NCBI GenBank assembly: GCA_028554795.2 | Contig: CM068838.1 | Coordinates: 128,995,428-129,059,427, forward strand | Direction: 5' to 3' | Source of the DNA: Sinohyriopsis cumingii | Taxonomy: Eukaryota; Mollusca; Bivalvia; Unionida; Unionidae | Length of the DNA: 64,000 nucleotides | The notes under the pieces: model-generated | Told to the model about the DNA's origin: nothing | What the model saw: only the letters and a program-made list of their open reading frames with translations | Databases searched by the model: none | Translations under genes and position numbers: made by a program | In this document: positions 11,881 through 58,832 of the stretch, piece by piece | How the letters are laid out: each line of letters begins with the position of its first letter | Position numbering within the stretch: position 1 is the stretch's first letter

Positions 11881-12145
11881 AAAAAGAGAAGAAAGAGAGG
11901 AGAAATAATAAAAAAAATTTAATTAAAAAATATTAAATAATTAACAAATATAAAAAATTCATTTAAGAATACAAATAAAATAGAAAAACATATAAAAAAT
12001 TGAAAATTATAATATACAACAACACAATTATAACAACAGTTACAAATTAGCAATAATTAACATGCATAGCAGGAGGGCCTCCCTAACTGGTCTGAAAAGA
12101 TCAAACAGGAGAGAGTACCCGTCAAAAAAAAAAAATACAAAAAAA

Positions 12146-14224
12146 TCACATAACGATGCTTAAGGATATGTAGCTTTTTGACGCACTGCTCAAAATTGAA
12201 GATAAGTTTCATTTTCTTTTAAGCTATTCATTATTCACTGGGCTAAGATATATGTATTTTGAGAAGTATGAGGATACTAAAGACTGAAGTTTGAAATTTT
12301 TTCAACTATTTAATGCACACTATAAATATGTTCTGGTAGCGTTTGCCCGCATATATCTTTACAAATTAATATATTTTAGCATATACCCTCATATACCTGG
12401 ATCTAAATGTAATATATGAAGCCAAGAAATGTACTCAAATACTTACACATTGTACTTTATTCATTAATATTTTCGTGTATTTAATTATTGTTTCCTCGTT
12501 TAAGACGAATCTCACGTTCCAGTTATCCTAACACAGGTGAATTTAAGGTTTCCCTCTCTGACCTACTTATGACCATGTAGCATTTTTGTAGATCAAAATG
12601 TGACCATTTCATCTATTAGATATCAACATGATTTACCGTTCATTTAGATTTCAAGAATAACTGCGCATAGTGTACGATGCGTTCCGTTATTATTTTTTAT
12701 AAAATGACTTGCGCCCATCTAGATTCACGTTATCAGTAGCTACACATACTACAGGCAAATATAGAGCAAAACATCCGAAAATTATTACTGAAAAAAATGC
12801 CCGAAGTTGGAGTGATTCTTTTTATCGATGTCATATCTATTCCATTATGTCCCGAAAATATACTTTGTATATTTTAATCTTTCACGAATCTATAACATAA
12901 TGATCTCTGTTTTAGTGACATCAACTTTTCTCACCTCCGCCGAAATCTTATGAGACTTGTACACCTTCTGTGTCTTTAGAGACTGTCACGTTGCCTGGCC
13001 ACGATTACGTAAGTCAAGAACAAAGGAATTGGTTAGAAGCCATGTGTATATGTTAGACCCTGCGGCTATAGTGGTCCTGTTCGGAATTGTTACGAGAGTC
13101 CAGCTTGTTGGGTGTCAAAAATCACATGTGGACGTTGAAAGATGTGTTCAAGAACAAGGGACACTTAGGCGTCGTAAATCTCACCACGCTGACAGCATTG
13201 TCTGCTAAATTGAATAGAACAGGGTAGAATCGATATCCAATCGGAATTGAGAGAGGATGTGGTCACCATTTCAACTCGAATTTAACTGAGTACGGTAGAC
13301 AAGAAACCCCCAGTCATTGTGAAACATCGTGCTGAGAAGTTGTAGCAATAACTCCGGAAAGCCACTCGTGAAATGGCGGGAAAACTTAGGAAATTCGAAG
13401 GAAAGACAAAGGTTCGTAACGGAAGATTTTAGGGGACAGACTTCCGGTGATGGTTTAGTCCCGAGTCTCTAGGAGAGAGATGGATTAGAGACTAATGGAG
13501 AAGTCGATTGTGAATCGAAGGCCAGTTGGAAAGCAGAGTCAAGGAGGAGGAGGAAAAGGAGTTGAGGAGGAGAAATTGGAAAAGAGCAGTGAAGGAGAAG
13601 GAGTTAGGAGGGAAGTCGTAAGGAGAGAAGGAATTGGCGGGATAGGAGAGATACAGATGAGTAGAAAACAAGGACAGGTGGAAAAGCGATCTCACACTAT
13701 AAATCACAGGATGCAATAGGCTATCACTTGGTCAAGAGGGAAAAGAGTGATTGTTAAATTATTATCATTTGAATATTGGATGGTATTAAATTGTTATTCT
13801 TTAGAATGTCACCTTTGTGTTCTTAATAATTTAACTGTCGGCATTGCTGACTGTGGGCTCGGAGCTTTACCTCTCTCTATCACTAAATTCACTTCCTACA
13901 ACATCGATCATGGGTGGGAATTCCATAGGAATTTAAATAATATATTGGGAGCACCTCACCCCAACCCTACCAAACCCCACGGTGGGCGCTTCGTCGGGGA
14001 TATGAATTAGACATAAATATTATCTTTACGACCTAAAGTTTTATTTGTTAGGAAGTATTAGTGAAATAGTTGTGACCTATTTTTCATTCTGTGTATTTTG
14101 AATTTTTATGATTTTTCATCTTGCGTATGTTATATTTGATATTTACATGCTTGGTAGATCTTTAGTTACTTGCAGTAATTGTGAAGCAAATATCGGGGAA
14201 ATTATCTTACCTGAGCGAAGTTAA
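12146..14224. other. Unassigned DNA, possibly containing the gypsy 5' LTR and leader
   Basis: No gene is supported. Short frames at 12957-13208 and 13747-14010 are matched in copy B with some changes but have no recognisable family. The purine-rich stretch 13440-13720 could be leader sequence. If the tggtgtcaaaagg motif at 14225 is the primer-binding site, the preceding bases would be the 3' end of a 5' LTR. I cannot identify a matching downstream LTR. Confidence 0.35.
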
Positions 14225-14323
14225 TGGTGTCAAAAGGTAAATATTTGGTTAGGAACGTGTAACATCTGTCAATTGTTTAGTTAGTCGAGACAAGGTATCA
14301 CTTACTGTTAGTATCATAATAAA

Positions 14324-15654
14324 ATGGCTACAGAAAGACATTTGATTAAGGAGTACCGTGCCATAGGCTCGGAAGATTTCTGGAACGAGGGAGATCGCCT
14401 GGCAGCGTTTATAGAGGAAAGAATCAAGGAATGGAAGGCAGAAAAATCAGCGGACAGAGAGCAGTCCAAGATATCAGCGGACAGAGAAACACAGAAAGAG
14501 CTAGACCTGGCTAGACTCGCTCACGCTCTCGAAATGGAGAAGGTAAGGTTAGCAGCCAGGGACACCGATAGGGACGACCGCAGTAAGATTCCTGGAGGGA
14601 GCGTACGACCATTTATCGATCACCGAATGGTACAAATAAGTATGCCAGAGTTCAACGACAAAGAAGAGACCATCGACGATTTCCTCGTGCAATTTGAGAA
14701 GCTCGGGGGCGCTCATAAATTCCCTCGCAGCATTGGGCGAATTGCGTATCAGCCGTTTTGCAAGGTGCAGCTGGCGAAGTTTACCACAGCTTAGCTGCAG
14801 ACGACGCTGACGACTACGGCGCGCTCAAGAAGGCCCTCCTTTGCCATTATCGGCTGATTGCCGAAACGTGCCGTAAACGTTTTCGGGATTCGACGAAAAA
14901 GACAACGGAAAGCCACTCTCAATTCCACACCCTTGTTTGAGGGTTATTTGAGAAGTGGATGAAGATGTCCGACAGTCTTTCTAGCAGAGAGAGAACACCG
15001 AGTGCTCGAGGAGATTGCCAGCATGGCGGAGAGATACGAGAAGGAAACACTCGAAGAGTGGAGGTTCCGAGGGTGCGGACCCACCCCATCCCACTGAGTT
15101 GTGCCGGGTGGGTGAAGGGAGAGCCGGCTGTCCGTAACTGTCAGGGCGACGAGAAGGTCGGAGGGGAATTCGCAGGTAAGGATGCCACCCATAGACCAGG
15201 ACAGGCCTCACAAACGAGAACGAGCCTTGCAGGTCTTCGAGGGCCGCCGACGTGTTACAACTGCAAGCGCCCGGGGCATTTTGCCAGGGACTGTTCCAAG
15301 GGCAGGCAGACCCAGGTGAATGACGTCGCTAGGAAAGAGTGCGAGCCGGAGGTAAGCTGTAACCCAGCGAACCTCGCGACTGTAAATTTTAACGGAGAAG
15401 GTGTCACCATCTTGTATGACACTGGGTGTAGCGTTCCAGCCATTGTCGACAAGAAATACGTGAAACCTGAGGATTACACAGGGAAGGTAATTGAATTCCA
15501 GTACGCGAACAGCGCTCGTGACTCGTTGTCAATGGCAGTCATTGACCTCGATTCGCCGTACGTGAAGGGGAAAATTGAAGCTGCGTGCTTGGCTGGACTA
15601 TCACATGACGTCATACTGGGATGTCGTTGTGTGTTGCCACAACCGAACCCCTAA
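14324..15654 (+). pseudogene. gypsy gag and protease, broken (copy A)
   Basis: Gag opens at ATG 14324 (MATERHLIKEYRAIG) with a charged helical N-terminus. A frameshift lies near 14758, a TGA at 14938-14940 is shared with copy B, and about 86 bases kept in copy B (from 54940) are deleted here. After the breaks, one frame to 15654 carries the nucleocapsid knuckle CYNCKRPGHFARDC and then the protease motif ILYDTGCSVPAIVD with its catalytic DTG. Gag would form the particle and protease would cut the polyprotein. No intact protein could be made from this copy. Confidence 0.8.
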
Positions 15655-15667
15655 ACCTGCACACCGA

Positions 15668-17081
15668 TGCCGGTGAGTGCTGTGGAAACCAGGTCCAAGA
15701 GTCGACAGACGAAAGCGACGCCGATAGAAGTTACGTCGACACCGGTCAGTAACGTTCTTCCGGCCGAATTGAGGAAGCTTTAGCAGGAAGACGCAACTCT
15801 GGCGCAGTTGCACAAATACGCTGCAGAAGGAACAGAGAAGGAAACTCCGAATGGTGCAGTGAAGTTCGCATATAAGAAAGGAATCTTTTATCGCCACGCC
15901 AGGAAAGGCAACGAACACTTCAAGCAAGTCGTCGTGCCAAAATACAAGCGAGGTGAAGTGTTGAAACTCACGCATGAAAGTCTCATGGGAGGACACATGG
16001 GAATTGCCAAGACGAGTGACCGTCTTGTCAAAGAATTCTACTGGCCAGGGGTCCAGGGAGATGTTAAGCGGTTCTGTTTCTCCTGTGACAAGTATTAGAT
16101 AATGGCACCAAAAACGGATCATCGACCAGTCGCCTTGGGGAGTACACCCCTTATGATGAACCATTTAGACGCGTCGCGATGAACTTGATCGGACCGATAA
16201 AACCCGCGTCGTCGCACGGAAATCGGTATATTTTAACGGTCGTAGATTTCGCTAATATTGTTTCGGAAACCGTTGCTGAAGCGCTGTTTGGGATTTGGTC
16301 AAAAGCCGCAGTGCCCGACGTGATCCTGACCGATCAAGGGACACAATTCATGAGTCGCGTGATGGCAGAGGTGAACCGATTGATGTCGATTAAGCACCTC
16401 ACGACTACACCGTATCACCCCCAATGTAACGGACTGGTCGAACGGTTTAACGTGACGTTGAAAAACACGCTCAAGAAGCTCTGCGTAGGCCACCTAAAAG
16501 ATTGGGATCGGTATATTCCTACCACAAGTGAGTTTAGGGTTTACTCCCTTTGAACTCTTGTATGGGAGGACCGTACGTGGCCCAATCGCCGTACTGAGAC
16601 AGCTGTGGACGGACGATCACACTGTCGAAGAGGTACGTACTACCTATCAGTACGTCGCGGATTTGCGAAACAAACTGGAGGAAGTTTGTTTCCTCGCACA
16701 GAGAACCTCAAGCGAGTGTAGTCGAGTCAGGCGAAGAATAACAACAAGCGCGCAAAACCACACAAGTATGAAGTAGGGGACAAGGTGTTTTTGCTGTTGC
16801 CCCAAGAACACAACAAGCTGCAAGTTTCTTGGACAGGTCCGTACGTCATAACGGGGAAGGTCGAAGGTCAAACCTATCGGATACGACTACCGAATAAGGA
16901 GAAGTTTACCATGCCAATCTCCTTAAGAGATGCCGGGAAAAAGAGACCGCCAGCGATTTTCTCGTCGCCACTATCGTCACCGAGGACGCCGAAGTCGATA
17001 TGGAAGGCGCAAACACTGTCCCGGGCTGTCCGTTACCGAGGGCTGAGACACCCTCGGACGTGGAGAGTGACCCCATGTTGA
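15668..17081 (+). pseudogene. gypsy integrase, broken (copy A)
   Basis: From 15668 the frame resembles a protease-integrase linker, interrupted by TAG at about 15781 (CAG in copy B). Then comes the HHCC finger (HESLMGGHMG ... CFSC), another TAG near 16096 (CAG in copy B), and the catalytic core from 16179: VVDFAN (first Asp), ILTDQGTQF (second Asp), and CNGLVERFN (Glu). A deletion relative to copy B near 16530 breaks the frame. The GPY-type motif WTGPYVI (about 16829-16850) closes the integrase, as in Ty3/gypsy integrases. The order places it upstream of reverse transcriptase. Confidence 0.8.
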
Positions 17082-18153
17082 CTGTGGTACAGAGGTAAGA
17101 GATAGTGACGTTGCTGGCCGGGTATTCCGATGTGCTTACGGAAATACCCGGGAGAACGTCACTTGTCGCATTCGGGTTATAGCTGGTGTAAGACCGGCCA
17201 GTCAAGCGGAAACCCTACCCATTGCCCATCGCGAAGCGACAAGTCGTAAGGGAAGAGATCGAGCAGATGGTTACTCTGGGAATAATCGAGCCCGCCGACT
17301 CTCCGTACAGCTCTCCGGTAGTCCTAGTGCAGAACAAGGATGGCACACATCGGTTTTGTGTCGACTACCGGAAGCTGAATCAGATGACGAAATTTCAAGT
17401 TGAAATGCTACCTGACCCGAACATATATTCGCTTCTGTCTCGAAAGCGAAATATTTCTCGAAGTTGCATTTGTCCAAAGGCTATTGGCAAATTCCTGTAA
17501 GGAAGGAGGATAGGGCATAGTTCGCTTTTGATACCCCTGATGGGACCTACCAATGGTTGGTCATGCCGTTCGGAGTCCAGAATGCGCCCAGAGTCTTCAC
17601 TAGAATGATGCGGAAGTTGTTGGAGCCCATGCGCGATAGGGGTGTCCACAACTTCATGGATGATCTCTTGCTAGCCACAAAGACGTGGGGTGAACACCAC
17701 GCTCTGCTAGCTGACGTTTTGGAGCGGCTACGTCAGGCGGGATTGACAGCTCGCCCTTCCAAATGTCGCCTTGGGTTCCGGACATTGGACTATTTGGGAC
17801 ATACCCTGAGTCAAGGCGCGCTGTCCCCCGAAAGGTCGAAGGTGGATCAGCTGAGAAACGCCGCACGGCCCACCACGAAAACTGAGGTGAGATCATTTCT
17901 GGGATTGGCCGGGTATTACCGGAGGTATGTGGCCAATTTCAGTGCGATTGCGGGGCCGTTGTCTCACCTAACGAAGAAACAGGCCCCGAGTAAAGTTATT
18001 TTAACGGGTGCATGTGAGCACGCTTTCCAAACGCTAAAGGATAGGCTTACATCCGACGCGGATGTCCGTCTACCGGATCTGTCCAAAGACTTCGTGCTTC
18101 GCACTTACGCATGTGACACGGGAATGGGAGCAAGAGGGGACGCTTTTTCTTGA
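17082..18153 (+). pseudogene. gypsy reverse transcriptase with truncated RNase H (copy A)
   Basis: RT motifs are clear across frames: GIIEPADSPYSSPVVLVQNKDG, then RFCVDYRKLNQ, LSKGYWQIPV in another frame after a shift near 17420, MPFGVQNAPRVFTRMM, and the catalytic FMDDLLLAT (Phe replaces the usual Tyr of YxDD). The thumb and connection follow (LDYLGHTLS, SFLGLAGYYRRYV). The RNase H start DFVLRTYACD is cut off at 18153 before its catalytic residues. A TAG interrupts the palm at 17518. Only the 3' end and any downstream LTR are missing; the truncation is identical in copy B. Confidence 0.85.
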
Positions 18154-18765
<612 letters not shown>

Positions 18766-18862
18766 AACGCGCATTAGAAGGAATAGATAAATAAAGATGA
18801 CGTTTTAGTGAATAAATAAAATAAAGTCTTAAATATATGAATAAAAAGACCCTAAATCTTAC

Positions 18863-18943
18863 CTTGGCGAAAGTGACAATATTCTAAACTCTATGACTTG
18901 AAATGCAAATGTTCCTTGGAGATGTTCAATTGGACCTTTATAA
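18863..18943 (-). promoter_or_regulatory. Orphan TATA promoter and non-coding leader exon (copy A)
   Basis: Read on the reverse strand there is a TTATAAAGG box (18935-18943), about 30 bases to a likely start, a short exon similar to the leaders at 31258-31302 and 38810-38845, and a splice donor CCAAG|GTAAGA (exon end 18863). In the related genes the next exon encodes a secreted protein. Here the downstream sequence holds only a (TA)n tract and the gypsy relic. The promoter appears to have lost its coding exon or to drive an unknown transcript. The duplicate lies at 58930-59010. Confidence 0.6.
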
Positions 18944-20373
18944 TGATGCCGTCAAAATGATATTTGTGCATTGACATGGGTAAGGGCATCATTTATTACA
19001 ATAGCCTCTGGATAAATATAATCAATCACCCATAATATTAAACCCAGAGGAAGGGGAAATGCATGCTTAATTTGTTTTATACTTTACTTGAATTGCATCT
19101 TGTTATAGCACACTGTGTGGCAAAGCTGTGTGTCTTATGCCAATATACAGAATATTTATCATGTATGTCTTACATGTCCGAGAAACTAGCATTACGGAAC
19201 AAACACAGATTTCTATGCCAGGAGCGTAGAAAAGCTGTTGTTTGTTGGCGGTGGTGGTGTGGAGTTGGCAAACGGAGGTTTTGTCAAGCTGACTTGTGGC
19301 CTGATATCAACGTCTTATTGCATATCGATAACATGTGGTATTTCATCATGGTCCCATATTTAGGATCCATGATTCAAAATAGCCAAACTTTTGGATGAAT
19401 TTCACGACACTATATATACATATAATGAAAGTGAACTAGGATCTGTCAAATCAGCATGAACTTTTACTGCTGGATATGCGTTCGCTTTCTGACACATGTA
19501 ACCAAAATATGTTTGAATATATACATAGAGCCCAAGGATTTATAGTATATTTCAATTTAGTCCGAGAAAGAGATGCAAACCTTTACTGATAGTGGCTGAC
19601 CATTCAGAGGTCGATTTAGTCTATTCTTTAAAATGTGTAATCCGTGCCAACAGTTATTTCCTCACTCATTGATATACATTTTAGAGGCTAACTGGTATTT
19701 CTCGACCAGCTGAAGGGTCCATTGGGCAATATGTGCAGAATATTTCCAGATGAAATCCCATCTTTGACAAGTTGTAAATGTGCGTGGAAGAACACTAGCA
19801 AACACAATATGCGATCTCGAATTTCTTGTGTATATCGGACGAGAATTTGGGATACGCCTTTTGTTGAGAAAGTGACCACAACAACATGGAAATCCAAGTT
19901 ATTGCATTCCCGAGAAATAGCTTGGTGAAGTGTTCGGTGTATTTTGAAGTTAAATTTAATCAAATGAAATCTTTAAAGTTTTTCACCAATGTAGAGGAAT
20001 CCAGTAAACGTATAACACTCGAATGCATCAATATATTTATATTTTGTGGTGCGAGTGTAAGGCAAACTTTGGTCCGTTACTCAGAGTCAACATCCTCAGC
20101 GTGTTTTCAATATTGAATATCTGCATATTACAATTGAGTATTAAGGGAAATAAAGGCTATTTTCAAGAAATAATTTGTGTTTCATTGTTTCGTTTTCTAT
20201 TTTCTATTTCATAAGTTGGATTTAGTAACTTTCAATACTTTTGAGAATAAAGATGATATTATGAAGAAAAGGAAAGGCGTATAGTTACTGCAATTACTTA
20301 GACTTGTAACCACAGTTATGAAGCTCTGTATCAGTTGTTGCATGATTAAAACAATTCGTTATCACTTATTGCA
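18944..20373. other. Upstream region of the leader-exon family, otherwise unassigned
   Basis: The first 450 bases resemble 38880-39310, the upstream region of the reverse-strand secreted-protein gene (shared blocks around 'gaattgcatc', 'ggcggtggtggtg' and 'gcatatcgataac'). The two are therefore paralogous promoter regions. From about 19450 I recognise nothing. Confidence 0.55.
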
Positions 20374-21541: not shown

Positions 21542-21547
21542 AACTAA
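21542..21547. repeat. Left target-site duplication AACTAA
   Basis: Six bases directly before the Polinton terminus, repeated at 30513-30518. The uninterrupted single copy is at 60839-60844 in copy B. A 6-bp duplication is the Polinton/Maverick hallmark. Confidence 0.93.
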
Positions 21548-21919
21548 AGTAGTCAATAGGGATACCGTTTGGACTATAGGGCATACCATTAAAAACACCC
21601 TTGGGCCAATATAGGAACAATGTAAATTTAACAGGGGAAATATGGCTGGGTCAATATAGGGACAATGTAAATTGAACATGGGAAAAATGGCTGGGTCAAT
21701 ATGGGGACAAGGGGAATTGAACATGGGAAAAAAATCTTGGGCAGGTTGAGTCTCAAGGGAAATGGAACAGGGTCGGGACCCTATTTTAATAAGGTCCCGA
21801 CCTGATGGGTCTCTATTTTTTTGTTTTTTTTAAAAATAAAAAAATAAAAAAATGGGGCTAGGCAATTGAAAGTCTCTTTTCGGGAGATTGGAGTGGCCCT
21901 GAAAAGGGCCTTTGGGTTT
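21548..21919 (+). repeat. Left terminal inverted repeat of the Polinton
   Basis: It matches the reverse complement of 30186-30512. It opens agtagtcaatagggatacc, contains about three 45-bp tandem units (gggtcaatatagggacaat...) at 21603-21738, then a palindrome ggtcgggacc/ggtcccgacc (21771-21802) that the right repeat lacks, an A/T tract, and the inner segment ggcaattgaaagtct leading into the histone-type stem-loop. Confidence 0.93.
21871..21914 (-). terminator. Histone-type 3' stem-loop and downstream element (left TIR)
   Basis: The transcript strand reads CCCAAA, then GGCCCTTTTCAGGGCC (21895-21910), then ACTCC. The stem and the TTTC loop fit the histone mRNA consensus GGCYCUUUUCAGRGCC. About 11-13 bases further lies a purine-rich CCGAAAAGAGACT (21871-21883), where the U7-pairing histone downstream element would sit. 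The stop codon of the reverse-strand gene at 21932 is 21 bases upstream. No AATAAA was seen. It probably closes the polymerase-BIR transcription unit. Confidence 0.85.
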
Positions 21920-21931
21920 CTTCTTCTTCTT

Positions 21932-22393
21932 CTAACTCCTCCACTTCTTCCACCAAGTCCTCACGTTTTCCATTATTCCTTTCTTCTTCTTCTTCTTCTC
22001 CTCCTCCTCTGGCATCCAGTCAGGATGACCCAAGGCTCTGAACTTTTCCTGGACTTTGATCCAATTCTGATTGAGTCTCTCAAACTCTGCCTGTTTCTTT
22101 TTGTTTTCCTGATCTTTTCTTTCTTTATTCCATCTCTCTTTTATCTTCTTTACCTCTACCTCCATCACTTTTCTCATTAACTCCTCTCCTTTCTTCAGTC
22201 TGTCCAAACAAATATGAACAACACGAAAGACAAAAATACATAAAAGCCAAATAGTTATGTACAGGAATAAAAAACACATCAAAACGATCAAAGTGGAATA
22301 TAAACAAGTCTCTGTACAACATGTTTTGGGTAAAGAAGATGTCCTAGGAACAGTATGTAATGTTCTTACAGTCTCTACATGAGGTATTGTCAC
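21932..22393 (-). CDS. Membrane-anchored coiled-coil protein of the Polinton (start uncertain)
   Basis: The protein has one strongly hydrophobic segment (CFLFLYITIWLLCIFVF, about residues 40-56) followed by a long Lys/Glu-rich helix that looks like a coiled coil, then a basic, Trp-rich end (TWWKKWRS). The annotated edge opens with GTG. The same frame stays open further upstream into the preceding small gene, so the two may be one gene with a frame break near 22500; the first in-frame ATG is otherwise inside the membrane segment. The stop lies 21 bases before a histone-type 3' stem-loop. I do not recognise a family. Position at the end of the polymerase gene string suggests co-expression. Role unknown. 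Confidence 0.55.
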   Translation of the reverse strand: MTIPHVETVRTLHTVPRTSSLPKTCCTETCLYSTLIVLMCFLFLYITIWLLCIFVFRVVHICLDRLKKGEELMRKVMEVEVKKIKERWNKERKDQENKKKQAEFERLNQNWIKVQEKFRALGHPDWMPEEEEKKKKKKGIMENVRTWWKKWRS

Positions 22394-22418
22394 ACAAGTG
22401 TCCTCCTGGAATGACCTT

Positions 22419-22622
22419 TCAGAAGCAATAAGACAGTCCTGTCCTGAAGCGAGGTAAACGAAATCCCAGAAAACAAGTCACTAAGACACACACTATGCGT
22501 CGTCCCAAATTGAATGGATACAGTTCTTGTAATAATTGATGGTAATGATCCACGGTTTGAATATGATCATTTAGTTCCTTCCACGGAATCTGTTCAATCA
22601 CTTGTGACATAAGCCATGGCAT
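22419..22622 (-). CDS. Small uncharacterised Polinton ORF, possibly the N-part of the next gene
   Basis: A 67-residue frame starting at ATG 22622 (MPWLMSQVIEQIPWKELND). The N-terminal half is helical with aromatic residues; the C-terminal half (CVLVTCFLGFRLPRFRTG) is different in character, and the neighbouring frame is open across the same bases, suggesting a frame break near 22500 that would join it to the membrane/coiled-coil protein. No family is recognised. It lies 64 bases after the preceding gene's stop, a larger gap than between the upstream cistrons. Confidence 0.4.
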   Translation of the reverse strand: MPWLMSQVIEQIPWKELNDHIQTVDHYHQLLQELYPFNLGRRIVCVLVTCFLGFRLPRFRTGLSYCF

Positions 22623-22686
22623 GGATTCCTGATTTTATAGTCTCTTTATTTCGGAAACAATAAAGGTACTTTCTAACTAGACATCT

Positions 22687-23085
22687 TCATTCTCCAGTAG
22701 GGAATCTAAATCTTGCATACTGTAACCTACACTTCAGAGTTTGTCTAGATGTTTCGTCTTCCGCTAAGCAGATTCCACGTAACATATGTTGGTAATCCTT
22801 TAACTCGTCTTCCTCAATGCGTTGCTCTAGGTGAATCTCGAAGTAATCAAAATTACGAACATTTAGTTCATTCACTAACTGAAAGTGTTGAACAAGGTCT
22901 GACCATTGAAACAATTTCTGACGAATCAGTCCTCTTATACCATTCAGGTACCAGTGGTTAAAGATCTGGTGACGTAACGGATGCAATTGTTCTTTACGTT
23001 TGACTTGTATTTTGACCAGCTCTCGGTAAATGCGTTCTCTCAACTCCACAGGCAAAGCACGAATGTTCTCTTGTAAAGTATCCAT
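22687..23085 (-). CDS. Uncharacterised 132-residue Polinton protein
   Basis: A complete frame from ATG 23085 to TGA 22687. The N-terminus (ALPVELRERIYRELVKIQVK) faintly recalls the F-box pattern LPxELxxxI, but the rest (HWYLNGIRGLIRQKLFQW, FDYFEIHLEQRIEEDELKDY) does not extend the match, so I do not assign it. It is soluble, helical and charged, with no signal peptide. Its ATG directly follows the TAA that ends the BIR reading frame of the upstream gene, giving a touching stop/start junction, and its own stop overlaps an ATG (ATGA) that opens only a five-codon frame. It is probably translated from a multicistronic message. Confidence 0.6.
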   Translation of the reverse strand: MDTLQENIRALPVELRERIYRELVKIQVKRKEQLHPLRHQIFNHWYLNGIRGLIRQKLFQWSDLVQHFQLVNELNVRNFDYFEIHLEQRIEEDELKDYQHMLRGICLAEDETSRQTLKCRLQYARFRFPTGE

Positions 23086-23762
23086 TTAAATATATTGTCC
23101 TACTAAGGGTAAGTAATGACAACTGGGAGACCATCGAGCATGTTCCAGGTAGGCTGAATCTTGCGGTTCCCAGTGGTGAAGTGACACACCGCAACTGAAG
23201 CACTTGACTTTATCCCCTTCGCCCAAGTAGCTAATTCTTCGGGGGTCGGTCCTCCCAGATATTTAGGCCATTTTCCTTTGAACGATTGAAAACGATTTCC
23301 AAAGTTGCAGTATTCCGACAAACGCACAGGGAACGAATATTCGTCTTTCACAGGTTCGTTTCGATCAGGGCTGGGTGACATGGACAGGAGTTTGCTCAAG
23401 GCTGGATGACATCCATAGGGAGGTAGACGTGAAGGTGAACATTCACCTTTAAAACGAAACCCAGTAAAGTGTCCAAGAGGACGAGCGGCATCGCTTTCGC
23501 ATCCCTCAGGTTTGACACGCACAACATCACTTTCCATGATAGGGGCAGTGAGAACAAAGTTCCCATGATGCTTTACGGCATCGCTAAGTTCACAGCGTAC
23601 AGCATCGTTCCCATCGCAAGGCTCACAATCGCATTCCACTTCAGAAGCCCCAAACTTGAATTGTGCCTGTCTGAACTTGTTTTGTGTTTCTCTGAAGGTA
23701 TTCATCTTGTTCGCTTGGTCTTGGTAGTCACAATGAACTATCGATCTTGACCATAGCCCCAT
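23086..23762 (-). pseudogene. Second BIR-domain (IAP-like) protein, frame broken
   Basis: It starts at ATG 23762, one base after the stop of the upstream BIR gene. About 150 residues of Ser/Asp/Cys-containing N-terminal extension precede a BIR domain. The beginning (SFPVRLSEYCNFGNRFQSF ... GKWP) is in the start frame. The zinc-binding half (CFSCG ... EHARWSPSCHYL, with the C-x2-C, His and Cys ligands) is in a second frame after a small deletion near 23225-23235, where the usual core residues before YLGEGDKVKC are missing. In the second frame the stop falls at 23086-23088. BIR proteins bind caspases or their regulators. There is no RING finger. As written, the product would lack the zinc site. 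Confidence 0.75.
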
Positions 23763-23763
23763 T

Positions 23764-24213
23764 TTATACTAGTCGCAATGCAGTCTCAAGCTTGTACATC
23801 GTTCCTTTTTTATGTCTTGTTTTGGAAGGTACCGTCTCTAAGGTGCCGTCATAATTGTACCGTAATGTAATGGGTGGAAAGGCCATAGAAAGGTAAGGGC
23901 AGTGCGGAGACCATCGAGTATGTTCCAGAATAGCTGAATCTTTATAGATACATAGATCCATTCGTAACTTTAGTCCACAAGCGAAACACTGTACTTCGTA
24001 TCCCAATCCTGACTCAGGTCCCAAGTAGACAAATCCTGTTCTAGCTAAAACATGCGAAGTAGGTAATCCTTTCCTATCCGTAGGCCATTTTTGAAACGTG
24101 TCCAATCGACGGGTACAATCACAATAGTCAGGCAAGAAAACCGGAAAATGGTAGGATTTGAACTTGGAGTTCTCATCGGGTTTCTCACTCGATTCTTGCT
24201 GTGGCGAAGTCAT
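23764..24213 (-). CDS. BIR-domain (IAP-like) protein, intact
   Basis: 149 residues from ATG 24213. One BIR domain spans about residues 34-107: RRLDTFQKWP, then LARTGFVYLG, VQCFACGLKL (C-x2-C), and LEHTRWSPHCPYL (His and last Cys of the zinc site). No RING or second BIR is present, so if it blocks apoptosis it would act by binding caspases or IAP antagonists, not as an E3 ligase. That role is an inference from family knowledge, as for baculovirus and other viral IAPs. Its ATG overlaps the polymerase stop codon (ATGA at 24210-24213). A related broken BIR gene follows after one base, so the pair arose by duplication. Confidence 0.85.
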   Translation of the reverse strand: MTSPQQESSEKPDENSKFKSYHFPVFLPDYCDCTRRLDTFQKWPTDRKGLPTSHVLARTGFVYLGPESGLGYEVQCFACGLKLRMDLCIYKDSAILEHTRWSPHCPYLSMAFPPITLRYNYDGTLETVPSKTRHKKGTMYKLETALRLV

Positions 24214-27200
24214 CCTTCTGGTGGGTGGCTATCCTCTAACAACCAATGTTTTATACTGACATGTCCATACGGCAAAGTAAAATGATTGGGAAGTCGCAGT
24301 CGCTTCTGGTACACGATTTGATAGACTTTTTCCAAGGGTCGACTGACGATGTGGTGAGTGGGTAAACGTACAATCTTGTTCGGTTGATAGGTGGTCACTT
24401 TAAAGTGTTCATCTTCTCTAGACTGTAAGGCTTCTTTCAATACCCCAAAGTTGACCACACGACTGGTACGATAATTCAGAGTCAATCCTTTCACTTTCCA
24501 CGTCGTGTGCACTTCTTCTTGTTTGTCCCGGTATTCGTAGCCGTAATTTTTGGGACCACCACTGACGAAACTTAGAATCTTGTCGTCGGGATGCTCGTCT
24601 GTCCAGGCTCCTAAACGGTCTCCTTCGATGTCAGGGTGCTGTTGACTCGGGTGATGGATGTAAATGCAACTGTCCGTGTCAAAGTACAGGACGCGTTCCC
24701 CTAACAGTTCTAAAGCTTCGTACAATTTTAAGTGAGCATGAGCTGTCACGTAAGCCGCAATGATGACATTTCCAAAAGGGTCGTCTTGTACAAAGTCCAG
24801 ATCTTCTTCGTAATTCACTAAGATCAAATTTTCGCGAACGACGTCCACATGTTTCATGAATTTGGTTTTGTCGTGAATCATCTGGAAGTAGCGGGAAGGT
24901 TCGGTCAAATATTCCGTCTTGGGTAAATACGGGCGTTGTGCCATTTTGCCCCACAAGCAATTTAACATCACTTTGGCAAACGATCGCCTGCCTTCGTATT
25001 TCTCGATGTGATCTAAAGTGATGCCTTCTTGTGCCCAGTATTTCTCTTTGAATGTCTTTTGGTCTTCGGGAGTGCGACACCGGGAAGGATAGCCGCTGAC
25101 TTCTTGCTTCAGTTTCAAAAAGGCATTCACGTAGTCTGCGAAAATGCCTTTCTGCGTGGGGTCACCCTTGTGGTATTGTTGTGTCTTGGGAAAGTGACAA
25201 AGTTCGTACACTTCTAACAGTTGGCATCCCATGTCCAAAGCTTTGAACAATTCTACGCTGACCCACGTACCCGTCAAGGCCCGTTCTTCCTGGGTGTGAT
25301 GACAAGGTTGATCTTGGTTGCACGTTTCGGCGCAAGTACGACACAAAGGAAACATCAGTTTGCCTTGGCAATGGTGAGGTAAGACGGGATGGTACAAGTC
25401 CGTGGGAGGCAAAACTTTGCACTTGATCGAGCCTTCGTATTGTCGAATGTTTTTCAGGTCGATGTGTTCGGTGAACAATTGTGGGCGCCCTGCAGGAAAG
25501 CGACAATATTTGCACAAGTAGGGAGACAGCGAACACACATCCAAGTATTTGATTTCTTCTCCTTTCTCTTCGTCGGCTTGGTAAAGCAAACAGGTGGCAT
25601 TGGTCCTTCCTCCGTACAAACTATCCCTCGGGTTCATGGGGTCCATGAACTGGTAACTTTCCACGAGGCGTTTAAACTCGGGATCGGTTTTCATACGGTG
25701 ATCGTATTCGTGTTCTCACATTTCCACCACTTGGTATCCTTGCTGTTCTAACTTTAGGCGTCGCTGACAAGTGACCTGGTACAAGTCTTCCATGGTTCGT
25801 TGTAAAAACTGATTTTTAGTGCCACGGTCAGGGTAACATACAGGACATCCGTGAAATAAGCAACCGTTAAACTCGTACACGATCTTGGGGTTTTCTAAGT
25901 CCCAGCCATCGACCGAATGCGTTGCAATGGTCTTTTCTCCTCCTCCGTTGCGGGCATGCTGAATCCACTTGTCTTCCTTGTCGCACAAGTAACGTAACCA
26001 GCGCAGGGCTTTGAACGAGTATTGACGTTTGACATAGTTGGTCGTTTGAGGACTGATGACAGAAACGGTGTTTTCAGGCATGAATCGTTTGTGGTACACT
26101 AAGGAACACGCTTTGGCAATGGTGCAAGCTTCTTTCAAAGGATCGACCCCTCCGTGTTCCATGAACAGTTCTCGAAATTTTCCACAGCAACGTCGTAAAA
26201 TGTCCACGTCGGAACGACAATACTTTAGCATTTCTTCCTGAAAGTCGAAAGGGTCGGAGGCGTGAGCCTGGTACCAAGCGTAGAAAGCTACTCGTTGTTC
26301 GGTACGCATTTTGTCGGGGTCGTAATAGTGTGCCTCGGGTAAATTGGGTAGAACGGTATATTGATTGGCTTCCGTATTGAAAAAGTGAGGAAAATAACCT
26401 TTAGCCGTTTCTGTCATTCCAAACGTTTTAGGCATTCGACTCAAAGGCATGGCCAAGTAACTCATCGAATCTTTAAACTGTACTTGTCCCACTTGCATGA
26501 AAATGATTTTGGCTCCGTTCAAAGTGACTTTAGGACGTTCGGTGCCATGTTCCGTATAGTACCTCAAAAGAAACTGTCCATCGTATCCGGAGAAATTGTG
26601 AACCATCACCGTGGCATGGCAATGACAATTTCCGTAACGTTCGATGTCCTCTTGGCTCCACGTCTTGTCGATGGGGTCTAAGACCCATCGAGCGAAATCG
26701 GCTAGCGTGTTCGGTCCCCGAAATATTTTTTCACGCCCTCAAGGAATCTTACTGCAGTAAGGGCAATGACTCACGATAGGTTCTTGAATGCACTTTTCGC
26801 ACGCTCGATGAGCCACGCAGAAATTAGGAATGTGAATACCAGTCTCTTGCATGCATTCGAAATCGAAAAAGATGAAATTGCCTTTCTTCTTGTGTTCAAC
26901 CTCTTTCTCTGGTTGGTATTTTTGCACGTAGCAATGGTGTTCCAAGTCCACGATGTGATGACAAATGTGACATTTTTTCTTTCCTAAACATAGTGTGCCT
27001 TGGCACTATTGGTACATATGTCTTGTCCACACGTAGGGCACAATCTCAGCAGTTGACAAGCGCATTTCTTCTGTGAACCTTGTGTTTTCAAATGCTGTTG
27101 GTAACAGGCAGGGCTGACAAACATGCGCAGACAAGTGAAACAATGCACTGGTTCTTGTCCTTCGCTCAGACAGGGTGGAGAGGCCAAACATTTTGAGCAT

Positions 27201-28281
27201 TTCGATCCACAATGCTTGTGTTGCTCTCGATTGTTATAGCCATAGCCACATTTCTCACAATAATAACCGTATCCCAGGAATCCGGTGATACTGGTAATGG
27301 TATCAAATTGTCATCGTGATGATAGACGTGAATGTATTTTCCATCCTTAAAGTCTTTCCCTCGAAACAACAGAGGCCCACGCATTTCTTGAGGGTGCACT
27401 TTCAAGGTGTAGCGTGGAGCTAGGACATCTTGCAATTTTTGCATTTCAGGAATGCCACAGGGTGTGTCTTTGGGCAAGTCGGCTTGTTGCAACAGGAGTT
27501 CTGCTTCACTTCGTTGTTTGGCTCGATCCGATTTTCGAATATTCTGCCAGGCTCTTTTCCATTCTACCGTGTCGTTTTTGTTGGCATAGGTTCGTCCCAC
27601 CATAATAGCCCTGGCTAAACACATCTGGTCTTGAGGGTTGTGAATTTGGACGAGGCTACGCTTAATGCTGCGAAGGTCGTTCACCAATAACATCTTTTTG
27701 CGTCCAGTCCCTTGAGGAGGAGACACGTGGGTCATAAACAGTGTGGCTTTTCCGTCGCTGATGTCAAACTGGTCATTGGATTGTTGTACGTGTTGAATTT
27801 TGTCCATGACTTTGGAAGGAGTCAATTCTGCAGGGCTACTAAACTCGATCCAAACAGGGGATTTCAAGCCGTCGTGTTGTATGGAAAGTCTCAAGCGATC
27901 GTCTTCTTTGGGTTGACATTGTCGCTTGAGTGTGGTAAGCAAAGAATCCCACATCTCAGTGATGAACCCTTTTGCTTTCTCTAACGGTACGTTGGACTTG
28001 AAATTTTTAAACTTCACCGTGTAGGTGTAAGCCGTGGTTCTAAATTTTCTAGAGGAGCGCTTTTCTGTCTCTCGAATGGAATAGCAATTTTCAGGGTTGA
28101 CTAAGGGTGGTGAACTTTGTTTAGAGGAAGACTCTCTGGGTTTGAATTCTGGTTCTCTCATGTCCTCTTCAGAATCACTGGCATGAATTTGTGCCAAGAC
28201 TTCAGCCCTGGTACGAGGCGATAGATCACGTTTCTGCCTCTTACTTTCTTCTTTCTTCTCGAATGAATTGAATCGTTTCAT
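24210..28281 (-). pseudogene. Polinton protein-primed family B DNA polymerase, interrupted
   Basis: It would replicate the element by protein priming. From ATG 28281 comes a basic N-terminus, then the Polinton-type region CLARAIMVGRTYANK ... CGIPEMQKLQ, a Cys/His-rich zone (27190-27300 and 26950-27180), exonuclease motifs I (FFDFEC, Asp near 26864), II (NFSGYD) and III (YCRSDVD), polymerase motif A (DVCSLSPYL), B (KVMLNCLWGK) and C (DTDS, 24669-24680), and the C-terminal LPYGHVSIKHW. All catalytic residues are present. The frame is broken near 27308 in a short T run and near 26990, and by in-frame TGA codons at 26739 and 25716 (a position where Trp is usual). Length is close to full for the family. 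Either recently inactivated or carrying assembly errors. Confidence 0.92.
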
Positions 28282-28323
28282 CTTGACTGCAAAAAGTCAA
28301 ATGACTAAAATTTAAACACCATG

Positions 28324-28362
28324 GACTAATTTATAGTCATGGCAGACCAGTGTATATAAAAG
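28324..28362. promoter_or_regulatory. Divergent promoter: polymerase (reverse) and zinc-knuckle gene (forward)
   Basis: A TATAAATT box lies on the reverse strand (within 28326-28335), about 45 bases before the polymerase ATG at 28281. TATATAAAAG lies on the forward strand at 28353-28362, about 54 bases before the zinc-knuckle ATG at 28416. The boxes are only about 20 bases apart, so the two genes share one bidirectional promoter. Confidence 0.7.
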
Positions 28363-28415
28363 GGTGTGTGTCTTGTCTTTTCACTATTCATTTCACTCTC
28401 AAACCAAGCACAACG

Positions 28416-28792
28416 ATGGAAGAGACTACCCAAATCGAACGTTTCGTCAGAGCTTTGCGAGGGGTCATTAGAAAATTCTCTTCAGAACAGCCGACAGACT
28501 ACTCTCCTTCCTTGCGAGATAAAAGTGAAGATACTTGCTATATCTGTCAGAAGAAAGGGCATTGGTCTTCAGAGTGTCGAGACCGTCAAAAAAAAATAAG
28601 GGGGATAGAAAAGACAAAAGTCAAGATACCTGTTATTATTGTCAAGAGAAAGGACATTGGTCCCCAGATTGCCCAAAAAAGAAACAAGAAGAGTCAGAAG
28701 AAGAGAGGGATTCTTCAGAGGAAGAAGAGGAAGAAGAGGAAGAAAACAAACAGGTGAAGAAAAAGAAACAGGAAAAGAAAAGAAGAAGGTAA
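28416..28792 (+). pseudogene. Zinc-knuckle (two CCHC) basic/acidic protein, frame shift in an A run
   Basis: It starts at ATG 28416 (MEETTQIERFVRALRG) behind a good TATA box. The first knuckle, CYICQKKGHWSSEC (28536-28577), is in the start frame. The second, CYYCQEKGHWSPDC (28631-28672), is in another frame, and the frames part at a run of nine A at 28588-28596. After the second knuckle come a Glu-rich stretch and a Lys-rich tail, ending at 28792. CCHC knuckles bind single-stranded nucleic acid, so a chaperone or packaging role is possible. The break may be an assembly slip, a mutation, or a slippery site. It is followed by a normal AATAAA at 28940-28945, unlike the other units. Convergent with the coiled-coil gene. 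Confidence 0.7.
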
Positions 28793-29040
28793 GAAAGTGA
28801 GGAGGAAGAGGAGGAAAAGACTGTGAAAGTGAAGAAATTTAAAAAACAGAGAGAGTGAAATATGAGACAGAAGAAGTGTATGAACTTTTTAAAGTGTTCT
28901 TTTGAGAATTGTGAATTGGATTGTAAATATTTATAAAAGAATAAATTAGGTATAAAAAGGTAAGTGTCTTTGAGTTTTGATTTTAAAATAAGAACGTACA
29001 CTCACACACTCATACACAGACACGTACTATAGGGGTAAAA
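28793..29040. other. 3' region of the zinc-knuckle gene
   Basis: AT-rich DNA with one AATAAA (28940-28945) on the forward strand, plausibly the poly(A) signal of the zinc-knuckle gene. It ends in a T run at 29042-29055 close to the third histone-type element. Nothing else is seen. Confidence 0.5.
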
Positions 29041-29074
29041 TGTTTTTTTTTTTTTGAGTTATTGGCAATTGAAA

Positions 29075-29121
29075 GTCTATCTCTTTTCGAGTGACGTGCG
29101 TGGCCCTGAAAAGGGCCTTTT
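29075..29121 (-). terminator. Histone-type 3' stem-loop and downstream element (internal)
   Basis: The transcript strand reads AAAAA, GGCCCTTTTCAGGGCC (29102-29117), ACGCA, and after 11 bases CGAAAAGAGATAGAC (29075-29089). Stem, loop and downstream purine box are the same as in the two TIR copies, although the spacer differs, so this is a third independent-looking placement. It lies 23 bases after the stop of the coiled-coil gene. No AATAAA follows. Confidence 0.87.
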
Positions 29122-29140
29122 TCTTGGTGTAGGAGTGAGT

Positions 29141-29713
29141 TTAAGCAATCAACTTTAACTGCCTTAAGTCTTTGCCACGGCCAAGGCCTACTTCTGAACT
29201 ACGTACTGTTGATGATGATGATGATTTGGTTGAAATCACTAAGGGTGGCACGGTAGGCTTAGTCACAGGGTTGGAGTGTTTAGCTCGGGAAGGTCGTATT
29301 CTCTTCGGTCGTAATAAAGAAGTCTGATATATTTGTTTCAGACTTCTTAACTCCGCTAAAATGTCTAACAGTACCGTGACCGTTTGATTTTCACACCCTT
29401 GTTTCTTTGCTGCTGCTTCTTCTTGTTGCTGTTTTTTTCTTACCTCTTCTTCTTGCTGTTTTTGCTGTAGGAGAAAAGCTTGTTCCGCTTCCTTTTGCTG
29501 TTGTATAAATTTCTCCAATTCTTCTTTCTGTCTCTGTCTAAAATTTTCCACGTGCGGTAATGAAGAAGGTGACGAAGGTTCCGGAACAAATTCTTGCGAG
29601 GTAAGAAAATCCACAAAATCCCAATTTACCTCTTCTGAAAGTAAGTCCGGGTTCCCTTGGGTGGTCTCCACTGCTGGTGCACCCCAATTGATCGTTTTCT
29701 GAGTTTCCGTCAT
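29141..29713 (-). CDS. Gln/Glu-rich coiled-coil protein of the Polinton
   Basis: The start chosen is ATG 29713 (MTETQKTINWGAPAVETT), the second ATG after the TATA box at 29759-29767; the frame itself extends a further 20 residues upstream past the expected transcription start. About residues 55-105 form a long Gln/Glu/Lys coiled coil (RQRQKEELEKFIQQQKEAEQ and onward), followed by a Leu-heptad segment (LLDILAELRSLKQIY) and a basic, Ser-rich tail (RPKRIRPSRAK). There is no signal peptide or membrane segment. I recognise no family. Its own TATA promoter and histone-type 3' end make it an independent transcription unit. A structural or DNA-end-binding role is possible but not shown. Confidence 0.7.
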   Translation of the reverse strand: MTETQKTINWGAPAVETTQGNPDLLSEEVNWDFVDFLTSQEFVPEPSSPSSLPHVENFRQRQKEELEKFIQQQKEAEQAFLLQQKQQEEEVRKKQQQEEAAAKKQGCENQTVTVLLDILAELRSLKQIYQTSLLRPKRIRPSRAKHSNPVTKPTVPPLVISTKSSSSSTVRSSEVGLGRGKDLRQLKLIA

Positions 29714-29756
29714 GTTGAATAACTGTCGCATGAATTGACTGCGCACAGGCGCTAGC

Positions 29757-29890
29757 AAATATATATAGACCACGTGACGTCACAGACGGCTCTGTTCTGA
29801 TTTGATGCGAGCTGATTGAATTTTGTAACGCGTGTTTGGATTGGTCAATGAACTCAATCCGTTTCAATCCTTCTTCTACCTATAAATAAG
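29757..29890. promoter_or_regulatory. Divergent promoter with a CRE palindrome
   Basis: Reverse-strand TATATATA (29759-29767) serves the coiled-coil gene. Forward-strand TATAAATAAG (29881-29890) lies 43 bases before the ATG at 29933. Just behind the first box, on its upstream side, is CACGTGACGTCAC (29771-29783), combining an E-box CACGTG with the CREB/ATF palindrome TGACGTCA (29775-29782). Confidence 0.65.
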
Positions 29891-29932
29891 CGCAGTTCAC
29901 TGCATTGATTCACCTGTTCTCGGTGCCTCAAG

Positions 29933-30166
29933 ATGTGGACCACAGTCGAATCATCAACCCTTGTTTCTTCGATGATGTTCCGGACGGACATACCCATGTA
30001 TGTCCGATCCAACTGGGCAGTTATCCATAGGACAGACACGAGTCTATGGATACGTAGGATCTATGTAGAACGTCAAGGATGTCTCAAAAGAGTGTTAATG
30101 TATGGTCCTACAGTGAGACGTAGCCTAAGGACAAGAAGAAGACCAATGCGGTGCCCTTTATGTTAA
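29933..30166 (+). CDS. Small basic protein of the Polinton
   Basis: 77 residues from ATG 29933 (MWTTVESSTLVSSMM), 43 bases after a TATAAATAAG box and ending 29 bases before a histone-type stem-loop, so the gene has its own promoter and 3' end. The C-terminal third is strongly Arg-rich (VRRSLRTRRRPMRCPLC), as in DNA-condensing peptides. No family is recognised and no membrane segment or signal peptide is convincing. A nucleic-acid-compacting role is an inference from composition and from the histone-like 3' processing signal; a chance frame inside a regulatory RNA is the alternative. Confidence 0.5.
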   Translation: MWTTVESSTLVSSMMFRTDIPMYVRSNWAVIHRTDTSLWIRRIYVERQGCLKRVLMYGPTVRRSLRTRRRPMRCPLC

Positions 30167-30185
30167 TATATCTTAATATTAACAT

Positions 30186-30512
30186 AAAACCCAAAGGCCC
30201 TTTTCAGGGCCACTCCAATCTCTCGAAAAGAGATAGACTTTCAATTGCCTAGCCCTATTTATTTTATTTATTTTTTTATATAAAAATCCCATGTTCAATT
30301 CCCCTTGTCCCTAGACAGACCCATACTCTATTCCCATGTTCAATTGCCCTTGTCCCCATATTGACCCAGCCATTTTTCCCATGTTCAATTCCCCTTGTCC
30401 CTATATTGACCCAGCCATTTTTCCCATGTTAAATTTACATTGTCCCTATATTGACCCAAGGGTGTTTTTAATGGTATGCCCTATAGTCCCTACGGTATCC
30501 CTATTCACTACT
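30186..30512 (-). repeat. Right terminal inverted repeat of the Polinton
   Basis: It is the reverse complement of the left repeat, ending ...ccctattcactact. It holds four 45-bp tandem units (about 30289-30466) against roughly three on the left, and lacks the left palindrome. Confidence 0.93.
30190..30238 (+). terminator. Histone-type 3' stem-loop and downstream element (right TIR)
   Basis: Forward strand: CCCAAA, GGCCCTTTTCAGGGCC (30196-30211), ACTCCAATCTCT, then CGAAAAGAGATAGAC (30224-30238). It lies 29 bases after the stop of the small basic gene. It is the same sequence as the left-TIR copy, but here it serves a gene reading toward the right end, so each terminal repeat processes the transcript that runs into it. 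Confidence 0.87.
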
Positions 30513-30518
30513 AACTAA
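30513..30518. repeat. Right target-site duplication AACTAA
   Basis: It is identical to 21542-21547 and immediately follows the element's terminal ACTACT. Confidence 0.93.
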
Positions 30519-51880: not shown

Positions 51881-52099
51881 TAAAAAACATTTAATTAAAA
51901 ATATTAAATAATTAACAAATATAAAAAATTCATTTAAGAATACAAATAAAATAGAAAAAAATATAAAAAATTGAAAATTATAATATACAACAACACAATT
52001 ATAACAACAGTTACAAATTAGCAATAATTAACATGCATAGCAGGAGGGCCTCCCTAACTGGTCTGAAAAGATCAAACAGGAGAGAGTACCCGTCAAAAA

Positions 52100-55701: not shown

Positions 55702-55713
55702 ACCTGCACACCG

Positions 55714-58828: not shown

Positions 58829-58832
<4 letters not shown>

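Follow-up and report, generated by a model that had tools for sequence, protein, structure and literature searches.

Among animal protein-coding messages, those that end in a stem-loop and carry no tail are described as unique to the replication-dependent histones, with the main cleavage placed 5 nt past the stem (PMC6303110). The purine core of the HDE, AAAGAG, is reported to pair with CUCUUU of the mouse U7 (PMC7026596). Cell-cycle-coupled control of histone mRNA has been attributed to the stem-loop together with SLBP, in a source which also states that histone mRNA in oocytes can stay stable independently of the cell cycle (PMC12803260), and dual 3'-end processing has been reported for H2A.X mRNA (PMC7807067). 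Matches to the Rfam histone 3'UTR stem-loop have likewise been counted in Polinton-like viruses; in the portions of that article considered here, however, they form a bare count without position, gene, purine element or function, and the cryptophyte set has none (PMC12220804). For adintoviruses and Polintons, stem-loop 3' ends are without description in the searched literature.

The window analysed here, a stretch of 64,000 nt from the bivalve Sinohyriopsis cumingii (contig CM068838.1), holds a 9-kb element at 21548-30512 whose ends are flanked by a 6-bp target duplication. AACTAA was read directly at 21542..21547 and equals the bases at 30513..30518, in agreement with the bounds given in a preliminary description of this DNA. 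The left (21548..21919) and right (30187..30512) terminal inverted repeats are identical in 299 of 329 ungapped aligned columns. The same description called the element a Polinton; the label holds as far as the type B DNA polymerase (PolB), the terminal inverted repeats and the 6-bp duplication are concerned, traits shared with adintoviruses and Polintons (Mavericks), and the polymerase has a relative annotated as 'coral adintovirus' at 41%. Unlike those elements, the window copy is only about 9 kb long, and neither an integrase nor a capsid-like ORF was found in it: a Pfam scan of nine window ORFs gave no rve integrase with C-terminal chromodomain, and tblastn searches of the window gave zero matches for the capsid-like ORF of L069, a longer relative from this genome, and, for the L069 integrase, a sole match at 16218-16493, outside the element. 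L069 itself has an rve integrase (E 3.5e-14) with a C-terminal chromodomain (Chromo, E 1.5e-7) and a capsid-like ORF, which is 31% identical (E 5e-67) to that of a distant relative, L001. Pfam gave zero matches for the capsid-like ORF, and both ORFs are labelled capsid-like by their position, as candidates for the double jelly-roll major capsid protein of this group. The window copy is best explained as a decayed and shortened member of a family of adintovirus/Polinton-type proviruses present in very high numbers.

On the minus strand, the interior of the element has an ORF at 22687-23085, followed 36 nt past its end by an AATAAA (22645..22650, minus strand), in contrast to the stem-loop genes described below; a BIR-domain (inhibitor of apoptosis) ORF at 23764..24213 (PF00653, E 1.3e-14); the interrupted polymerase at 24210..26606, split into two ORFs (PF03175, E 1.2e-18 and 5.4e-15); and a 371-aa ORF at 27166..28281, with seven database relatives and no Pfam family, whose predicted model, built with an N-terminal OTU-like domain of PolB in question, reached a mean pLDDT of only 48. 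On the plus strand, a zinc-knuckle ORF at 28416..28757 (PF00098, E 6.9e-6) has an AATAAA downstream at 28940.

Three further genes lie near the ends, and none of their ORFs has a histone match in Pfam, which sets them apart from the replication-dependent histone genes. The leftmost, on the minus strand at 21932..22279, encodes a basic protein of 115 aa (pI 9.8; no Pfam family above cut-off), its 5' part being uncertain; a TATAAA stands upstream (22634..22639, minus strand), and of 30 sampled sites, the 12 that belong to the left class are preceded by ORFs of 31 to 198 aa. The second, at 29141..29731 on the minus strand, encodes 196 aa predicted as a single long helix (residues 59-138; model mean pLDDT 66.5), with 20 database relatives and 150 scored places across the host genome. 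The third, at 29933..30166 on the plus strand, encodes an arginine-rich protein of 77 aa (pI 11.5) without a Pfam family. The last two are divergent, with a palindromic TGACGTCA between them (29775..29782), a TATA-like box for the 196-aa gene (29760..29767, minus strand) and a TATAAA 52 nt upstream of the 77-aa gene (29881..29886, plus strand). In all five copies viewed, from eight right-class loci, TATAA recurs at -52 of the 77-aa gene and TGACGT or ACGTCA at -157/-158. The 77-aa gene is under purifying selection, with dN/dS of 0.07-0.16 between diverged copies (24 of 28 pairs, those with dS of at least 0.29).

Each of these three genes is followed by an exact copy of the 16-mer GGCCCTTTTCAGGGCC, a histone-type stem-loop with a 6-bp GC-rich stem and a 4-nt pyrimidine-rich loop, located at 21895..21910 (minus strand, inside the left repeat), 29102..29117 (minus strand, outside the terminal repeat) and 30196..30211 (plus strand, inside the right repeat), and the stems begin 21, 23 and 29 nt past the respective stop codons. 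A purine box, CGAAAAGAGA, starts 12 nt after each stem (21873..21882 and 29080..29089, minus strand; 30224..30233, plus strand), and its AAAGAG starts 15 nt past the stem at all three sites. The copies, their stop-to-stem distances, the box some 11-13 bases downstream and the lack of AATAAA after the three stops had all been put forward in the preliminary description and were recovered by measurement, no AATAAA being present within 100 nt downstream at any site; an ATTAAA does occur 104 nt downstream of the first. The Rfam Histone3 gathering score was reached by two of the three sites (RF00032; 36.2 bits over 21869-21915 and 35.9 bits over 30191-30236), the site at 29102 not being listed. Folding z-scores of the flanks were -0.32, -2.24 and -3.53 for sites 1, 2 and 3, so that the flank of stem-loop 1 folds no better than shuffles, and a CA ends at +5 or +6 from the stem in all four element sites examined.

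Nothing but the shortness of the motif speaks for hairpins that arose by chance, a reading that is vanishingly improbable. When up to three mismatches to the 16-mer were allowed, shuffled sequence gave a mean of 0.15 matches and three matches in none of 100 shuffles, and a joint motif (a perfect 6-bp stem, a histone-type loop and AAAGAG 8-22 nt later) matched three times in the window, against no match in 3.84 Mb generated at random by a Markov-1 model. In the 2.9-Gb host genome the 16-mer pattern has 35,021 matches and its reversed control 0. The shuffle, random-sequence and reversed-control counts thus refute chance. A more specific pattern, with a 14-base core, a fixed 14-nt gap and AAAAGA, has 32,083 matches and a control of 0; both genome counts take in some H2B genes.

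The stem-loop of the host's own H2B is the identical 16-mer, while those of H3, H4 and H2A differ from it solely in the last loop base and that of H1 in one stem pair; the GGCCCT...AGGGCC stem with its 4-nt loop is common to element and histones. The purine core also sits in the same register: AAAAG starts 14 nt past the stem in H3, H4, H2B and the six element sites aligned beside them, and 15 nt past it in H2A and H1. A CA ends at +5 after the stem in H3, H2A and H2B, only at +3 in H4 and nowhere near in H1; it ends at +5 in all 30 sampled element sites. Stop-to-stem distances are 27-38 nt in host histones and 19-34 nt in 26 of the 30 element sites, two others having 63 and 69 nt and two being without an ORF. 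The Rfam U7 model (RF00066) gave no host match among the 65 of 801,960 first-look candidates that were scored, a search in which the control was also silent.

The three window sites are not independent, a point missing from the preliminary description: stem-loops 1 and 3 sit in opposite arms of the terminal inverted repeat, whose inner end recurs around stem-loop 2 as an inverted duplicate of 57 nt at 91%. This arrangement would suit a hairpin that serves replication or packaging as a site for terminal protein, helicase or integrase, its likeness to histone ends being incidental, and conservation of stem-loops 1 and 3 within the repeat could indeed serve replication. The site of L001 may or may not lie in a repeat, the first ORF of its contig running off the other end. 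Such an origin is nevertheless unlikely, since stem-loop 2 is not part of the repeat and keeps 15-16 of the 16 bases in all 20 copies that were picked by protein with the motif ignored. Nor would a replication element need a purine core in the host histone register, a CA at +5/+6, or placement 19-34 nt past a stop. Among the protein-chosen copies, 13 of 20 have the exact stem-loop and seven one altered base, and GAAAAGA is complete and in register in 17, the box being altered in three. Where one site was exact by choice and its partner left free, 16 of 18 partners keep 16/16 bases and two keep 15/16, with a purine box at all 18. The preliminary description had set against its own reading the prospect that relatives would carry the motif away from stop codons, merely as terminal-repeat sequence; the result went the other way, because the central stem-loop falls beyond the repeat, downstream of a conserved gene.

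A captured histone 3' end that is carried as a functionless passenger, spread by copy number alone, would account for the identity with host H2B, and any passenger would be common to young copies. It is a very improbable account in view of the three in-register sites behind three different genes and of the persistence of the stem-loop unit between copies whose 77-aa genes reach dS 1.6 (copies chosen by the exact 16-mer, with the purine box left free). The unit is also present in L001, whose PolB is 39% identical: there it lies 28 nt past the stop of a zinc-finger ORF, with an Rfam score of 35.8 bits and a purine gap of 15, and an AATAAA follows 70 nt downstream of the site. Six of the seven related loci examined (L002-L007), all fragments, are without the stem-loop signal. 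In the read-through tail of a further relative (P0134) 29 of 33 informative bases match and the sixth stem pair cannot be kept, and viral_contigs yielded neither the motif nor a relative.

The shared stem, purine core and spacing of the host histones, the 20 of 20 protein-chosen copies and L001 strongly support the earlier claim that these genes end in histone-type 3' signals, and on this comparison of sequences the three window sites are very probably working histone-type 3' ends. Three small transcription units of the element, those of the 115-aa, 196-aa and arginine-rich 77-aa ORFs, end in a form of the host signal, in the order of stem-loop, CA 5-6 nt on and purine core 14-15 nt past the stem. 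In the proposed mechanism host SLBP would bind the stem-loop, the U7 snRNP would pair with the purine core, and cleavage behind the CA would yield a transcript that has no poly(A) tail. Such messages would be made, stabilised and translated for the most part during S phase, or in cells kept in a state like it, the time at which replication of the element itself is possible. The zinc-knuckle gene and the block that ends at 22687, each with an AATAAA downstream, would instead be polyadenylated, which would make two expression classes. Six of the 30 sampled sites have an AATAAA or ATTAAA no more than 200 nt away, and the L001 site has its AATAAA at 70 nt; polyadenylation could therefore be a fallback.

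S-phase timing is less certain than the working 3' ends. The signals may be real and yet be used otherwise, giving compact tail-less mRNAs that escape deadenylation or the surveillance that depends on poly(A), or that are exported and translated by the histone route; this is a tentative possibility, which the sequence evidence fits equally well and with which the dual processing of H2A.X (PMC7807067) and the cell-cycle-independent stability in oocytes (PMC12803260), as reported, are in keeping. It accepts the histone-type signal and disputes its use alone. Against it, the stem-loop and SLBP are said to couple histone mRNA to the cell cycle (PMC12803260), which makes coupling the default expectation. 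Ends of the host's histone kind on three of its own non-histone genes suggest that the element ties these genes to the host's DNA-copying phase.

There is about an even chance that animal adintoviruses and Polintons of a widespread class share this division, with poly(A)-ended replication genes and small, mostly basic near-terminal genes that are stem-loop-ended and tail-less in S phase. If so, virus-like elements would have taken over the sole mRNA 3'-end route thought private to histones, and the stem-loop and HDE in such elements would track each host's U7. Annotation would call for caution, since in such genomes the many copies of the element would swamp histone-gene motif searches, and its stem-loop messages would be lost from RNA-seq libraries selected for poly(A). 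Non-histone genes with the complete signal, some 30,000 in this one genome, would be natural tests of what the stem-loop alone confers, and would open a way to study how expression in virus-like elements is timed to DNA replication.

The element at 21548-30512 is bordered on both sides by a 6-bp target duplication (AACTAA), and its two ends are identical in 299 of 329 ungapped aligned columns. The minus strand carries a fragmented type B polymerase and an ORF with a BIR domain (23764-24213); since in-frame stops and a change of frame interrupt the polymerase, the element in the window is a decayed copy. Named relatives of the polymerase include proteins of oysters, where the nearest of them occur, and of other invertebrates, as well as one named as a coral adintovirus. 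No integrase or capsid family was matched among the nine window ORFs scanned with Pfam. In tblastn against the window, neither the integrase nor the capsid-like ORF of a relative was placed inside the element, the sole weak integrase match lying outside it at 16218-16493. The 77-aa product of the rightmost gene is arginine-rich (pI 11.5) and matched no Pfam family; that it might bind DNA is a guess. The structure model of the 371-aa ORF was of too poor quality for use.

By eye, the ORF adjoining the BIR ORF (23103-23762, minus strand) looks like a degenerate second copy of it; the two share a 50-nt repeat (78%, at 23113 and 23893), and the former had no Pfam match. Tandem repeats of 45 nt occur within the terminal inverted repeats (21602-21736 and 30287-30458), while a different short repeat was seen by eye near the end of L001, the contig of a distant relative. 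Retroelement-like ORFs, zinc-knuckle and integrase-like by eye, also flank the element in two sets (10411-19398 and 49581-59465) that are very similar and lie about 40 kb from each other.

The preliminary description had placed three histone-type stem-loops of 16 nt at 21895-21910, 29102-29117 and 30196-30211, lying 21, 23 and 29 nt past stop codons; all three matches (on the minus, minus and plus strand) proved exact, and the gaps were confirmed by remeasuring. The stop codons are those of a 115-aa, a 196-aa and the 77-aa ORF, respectively. At each of them the purine box AAAGAG starts 15 nt past the stem, and the gathering score of the Rfam Histone3 model was passed at two of the three. Chance hairpins were rejected as an explanation: none of 100 shuffles yielded three matches in the 16-mer scan of the window, even with 3 mismatches allowed, the joint motif of stem-loop and AAAGAG had no match in 3.84 Mb of Markov-1 sequence, and the reversed-pattern control gave 0. 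The first and third sites represent opposite arms of the terminal inverted repeat, a point left unmentioned previously, and the second duplicates the inner end of that repeat over 57 nt at 91%, so that all three belong to one sequence family. A passenger reading, namely a captured histone 3' end without function, was rejected as well, as the sites stand in register after three genes and the unit of stem-loop and purine box is also found in L001.

The signal resembles that of the host's own histone genes. In one five-gene histone repeat examined (L068), H3, H4, H2A, H2B and H1 each have a terminal stem-loop 27-38 nt past the stop. The 16-mer of H2B is identical to that of the element letter for letter, whereas those of H3, H4 and H2A differ in the last loop base alone and that of H1 in one stem pair. 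After the stem, AAAAG starts at 14 nt in host H3, H4 and H2B and at 15 nt in H2A and H1. For the six element sites compared with them, L001 included, the distance is 14 nt. The purine box, or HDE, reads CTAGAAAAGA in host H3, H4, H2B and H1, in contrast to CTCGAAAAGA in most element places listed for the 14-base core with AAAAGA. Thirty loci around H3 genes were compared: the H3 signal was identical in 29 and stood behind a cut ORF in the remaining one, and an H4 signal was seen in 29, in two forms one later base apart.

Searches of the host genome (a 2.90-Gb assembly of 1138 contigs, with the window part of contig C15) returned 17,286 + 17,735 matches to the 16-mer pattern GGCYCTTTTCAGRGCC and 15,897 + 16,186 matches to the 14-base core followed by AAAAGA at a fixed 14-nt gap, with 0 for both controls. 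Some of the counted matches are histone H2B genes: on contig C1, seven evenly spaced places with a common flank are present in both listings, and the three examined all follow H2B ORFs. One piece of C1 (5072000-5078500) is part of a tandem H2B array with a 1851-bp unit, three units of which lie in the piece examined; this array is separate from the five-gene repeats and has the identical 16-mer with a slightly different purine box. In four groups of 16-mer matches measured, a divergent pair of sites, spaced about 1.08 kb from each other, follows 15.4-18.4 kb after a first site; the window equivalents are 1.09 kb and 7.2 kb, and these relatives therefore exceed the window's copy in length. From one such longer relative, L069, a 9.9-kb piece was examined: its integrase, which has rve and chromodomain, shares 35% identity with the L001 integrase, and another of its ORFs is 31% identical to the capsid-like one in L001.

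Conservation of the unit was examined in a sample of 30 sites, the first places on C1, all selected by the 16-mer pattern. A CA ends at +5 in all 30, and the purine box is AAAGAG in register in 23, the GAAAAGAAA variant in six and decayed in one. Taking as the preceding gene the longest ORF ending within 90 nt, the sites fall into three gene classes, 12 left, 10 middle and 8 right, with stop-to-stem gaps of 19-34 nt in 26, gaps of 63 and 69 nt in two, and an ORF absent in two. Since these loci had been selected by the exact 16-mer, covariation and selection tests on the stem-loop itself were rejected, and a partner check and a protein-chosen sample were used instead. In the former, one site was required to be exact while its partner was left free and taken as the best-scoring place within a 550-nt span; across the 18 tests (8 element pairs, each viewed from either side, plus two single ones), the partner's stem-loop matched at 16/16 positions in 16 and 15/16 in two, and GAAAAGA was full in all 18. 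The latter comprised 20 stretches, taken at ranks 7, 14 ... 140 (rank 147 omitted) among the 150 top-scoring places for the 196-aa protein, and leans to window-like copies, because the 150 are those scored among 28,794 first-look candidates. Here the stem-loop was 16/16 in 13 copies and 15/16 in seven, GAAAAGA was intact in 17 copies, kept 6/7 bases in two others and 5/7 in the last, and AATAAA and ATTAAA were absent from the short stretch downstream of the unit in all 20. The 77-aa gene is under purifying selection: 28 pairs from 8 sequences were compared over the first 68 codons, and the 24 whose dS is at least 0.29 have dN/dS of 0.07-0.16; the four near-identical pairs, at 0.00 to 0.84, are scarcely informative.

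Outside the host genome, among seven polymerase-related loci of genome_contigs, the unit is present in one, L001, and absent from the six others, which are fragments of 3.6-12.7 kb. The L001 unit scores 35.8 bits with Rfam and lies 28 nt past the stop of an 89-aa C2H2 zinc-finger ORF; it differs in one loop base (TTAT for TTTT), its CA ends at +6, and AAAGAG follows at a 15-nt gap. This contig is filed under a bacterial bin, yet it has genes for PolB, TBP, zinc-finger proteins and an rve integrase whose chromodomain match falls short of the cut-off. The TATA-binding-protein relative (L001:7189-7695, minus strand; PF00352, E 1.2e-27) is divergent from the stem-looped zinc-finger gene. In P0134, a metagenomic relative of the 196-aa protein, the reading frame continues beyond the usual end; the resulting tail agrees with the window stem-loop and box at 29 of the 33 bases that are informative, and one stem pair is not kept. 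By eye, another database protein, P0147, begins like the 196-aa protein and continues with a segment similar to the 371-aa ORF, pointing to an element derived by deletion. Motif scans of viral_contigs gave no match, and no relative was confirmed there with the polymerase alignment, the L001 capsid-like ORF or the 196-aa alignment; phage and plasmid records gave remote polymerase matches only (2 and 3 records).

In the literature searched, which did not cover the founding adintovirus paper, no description joining Polintons, Mavericks or adintoviruses with the histone stem-loop was found. One trace of such signals is a count, uncommented in the non-coding RNA section of PMC12220804, of six Rfam 'histone 3'UTR stem-loop' matches in PLV and virophage genomes. 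Adintoviruses, some with zinc-finger genes, are described in PMC11071296, in whose text 'stem-loop' is absent; a paper on viral histones (PMC9145170) contains no stem-loop, SLBP, Polinton or adintovirus terms, and PMC12846552 mentions histone mRNAs only to illustrate how cells express genes independently of poly(A). For histone pre-mRNAs, the main cleavage lies 5 nt past the stem (PMC6303110), S-phase histone genes of a cnidarian combine stem-loops with purine-rich HDEs (PMC5011920), and the U7 gene carries the complement of the HDE beside a AAUUUGUCU-type Sm site (PMC7026596). A search for the host U7 snRNA with the Rfam model gave no match, and the control was equally silent.

As putative processing sites, those of the element conform to the published sequence requirements for histone-type 3' ends. 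Since other genes of the element are followed by AATAAA, at 22650 (-) and 28940 (+), its genes are likely split into a polyadenylated and a stem-loop set. Upstream of the stem-loop genes lie TATA-like boxes, and a TGACGTCA site is common to the divergent gene pair. Taken together, there is strong support for a real 3'-end signal of histone type that matches the host's, is widely kept and follows non-histone genes in an element of adintovirus/Polinton type. From this signal we infer that the element's stem-loop transcripts would undergo histone-type processing and timing, with S-phase expression of these genes predicted by analogy with the known cell-cycle control of histone mRNA.
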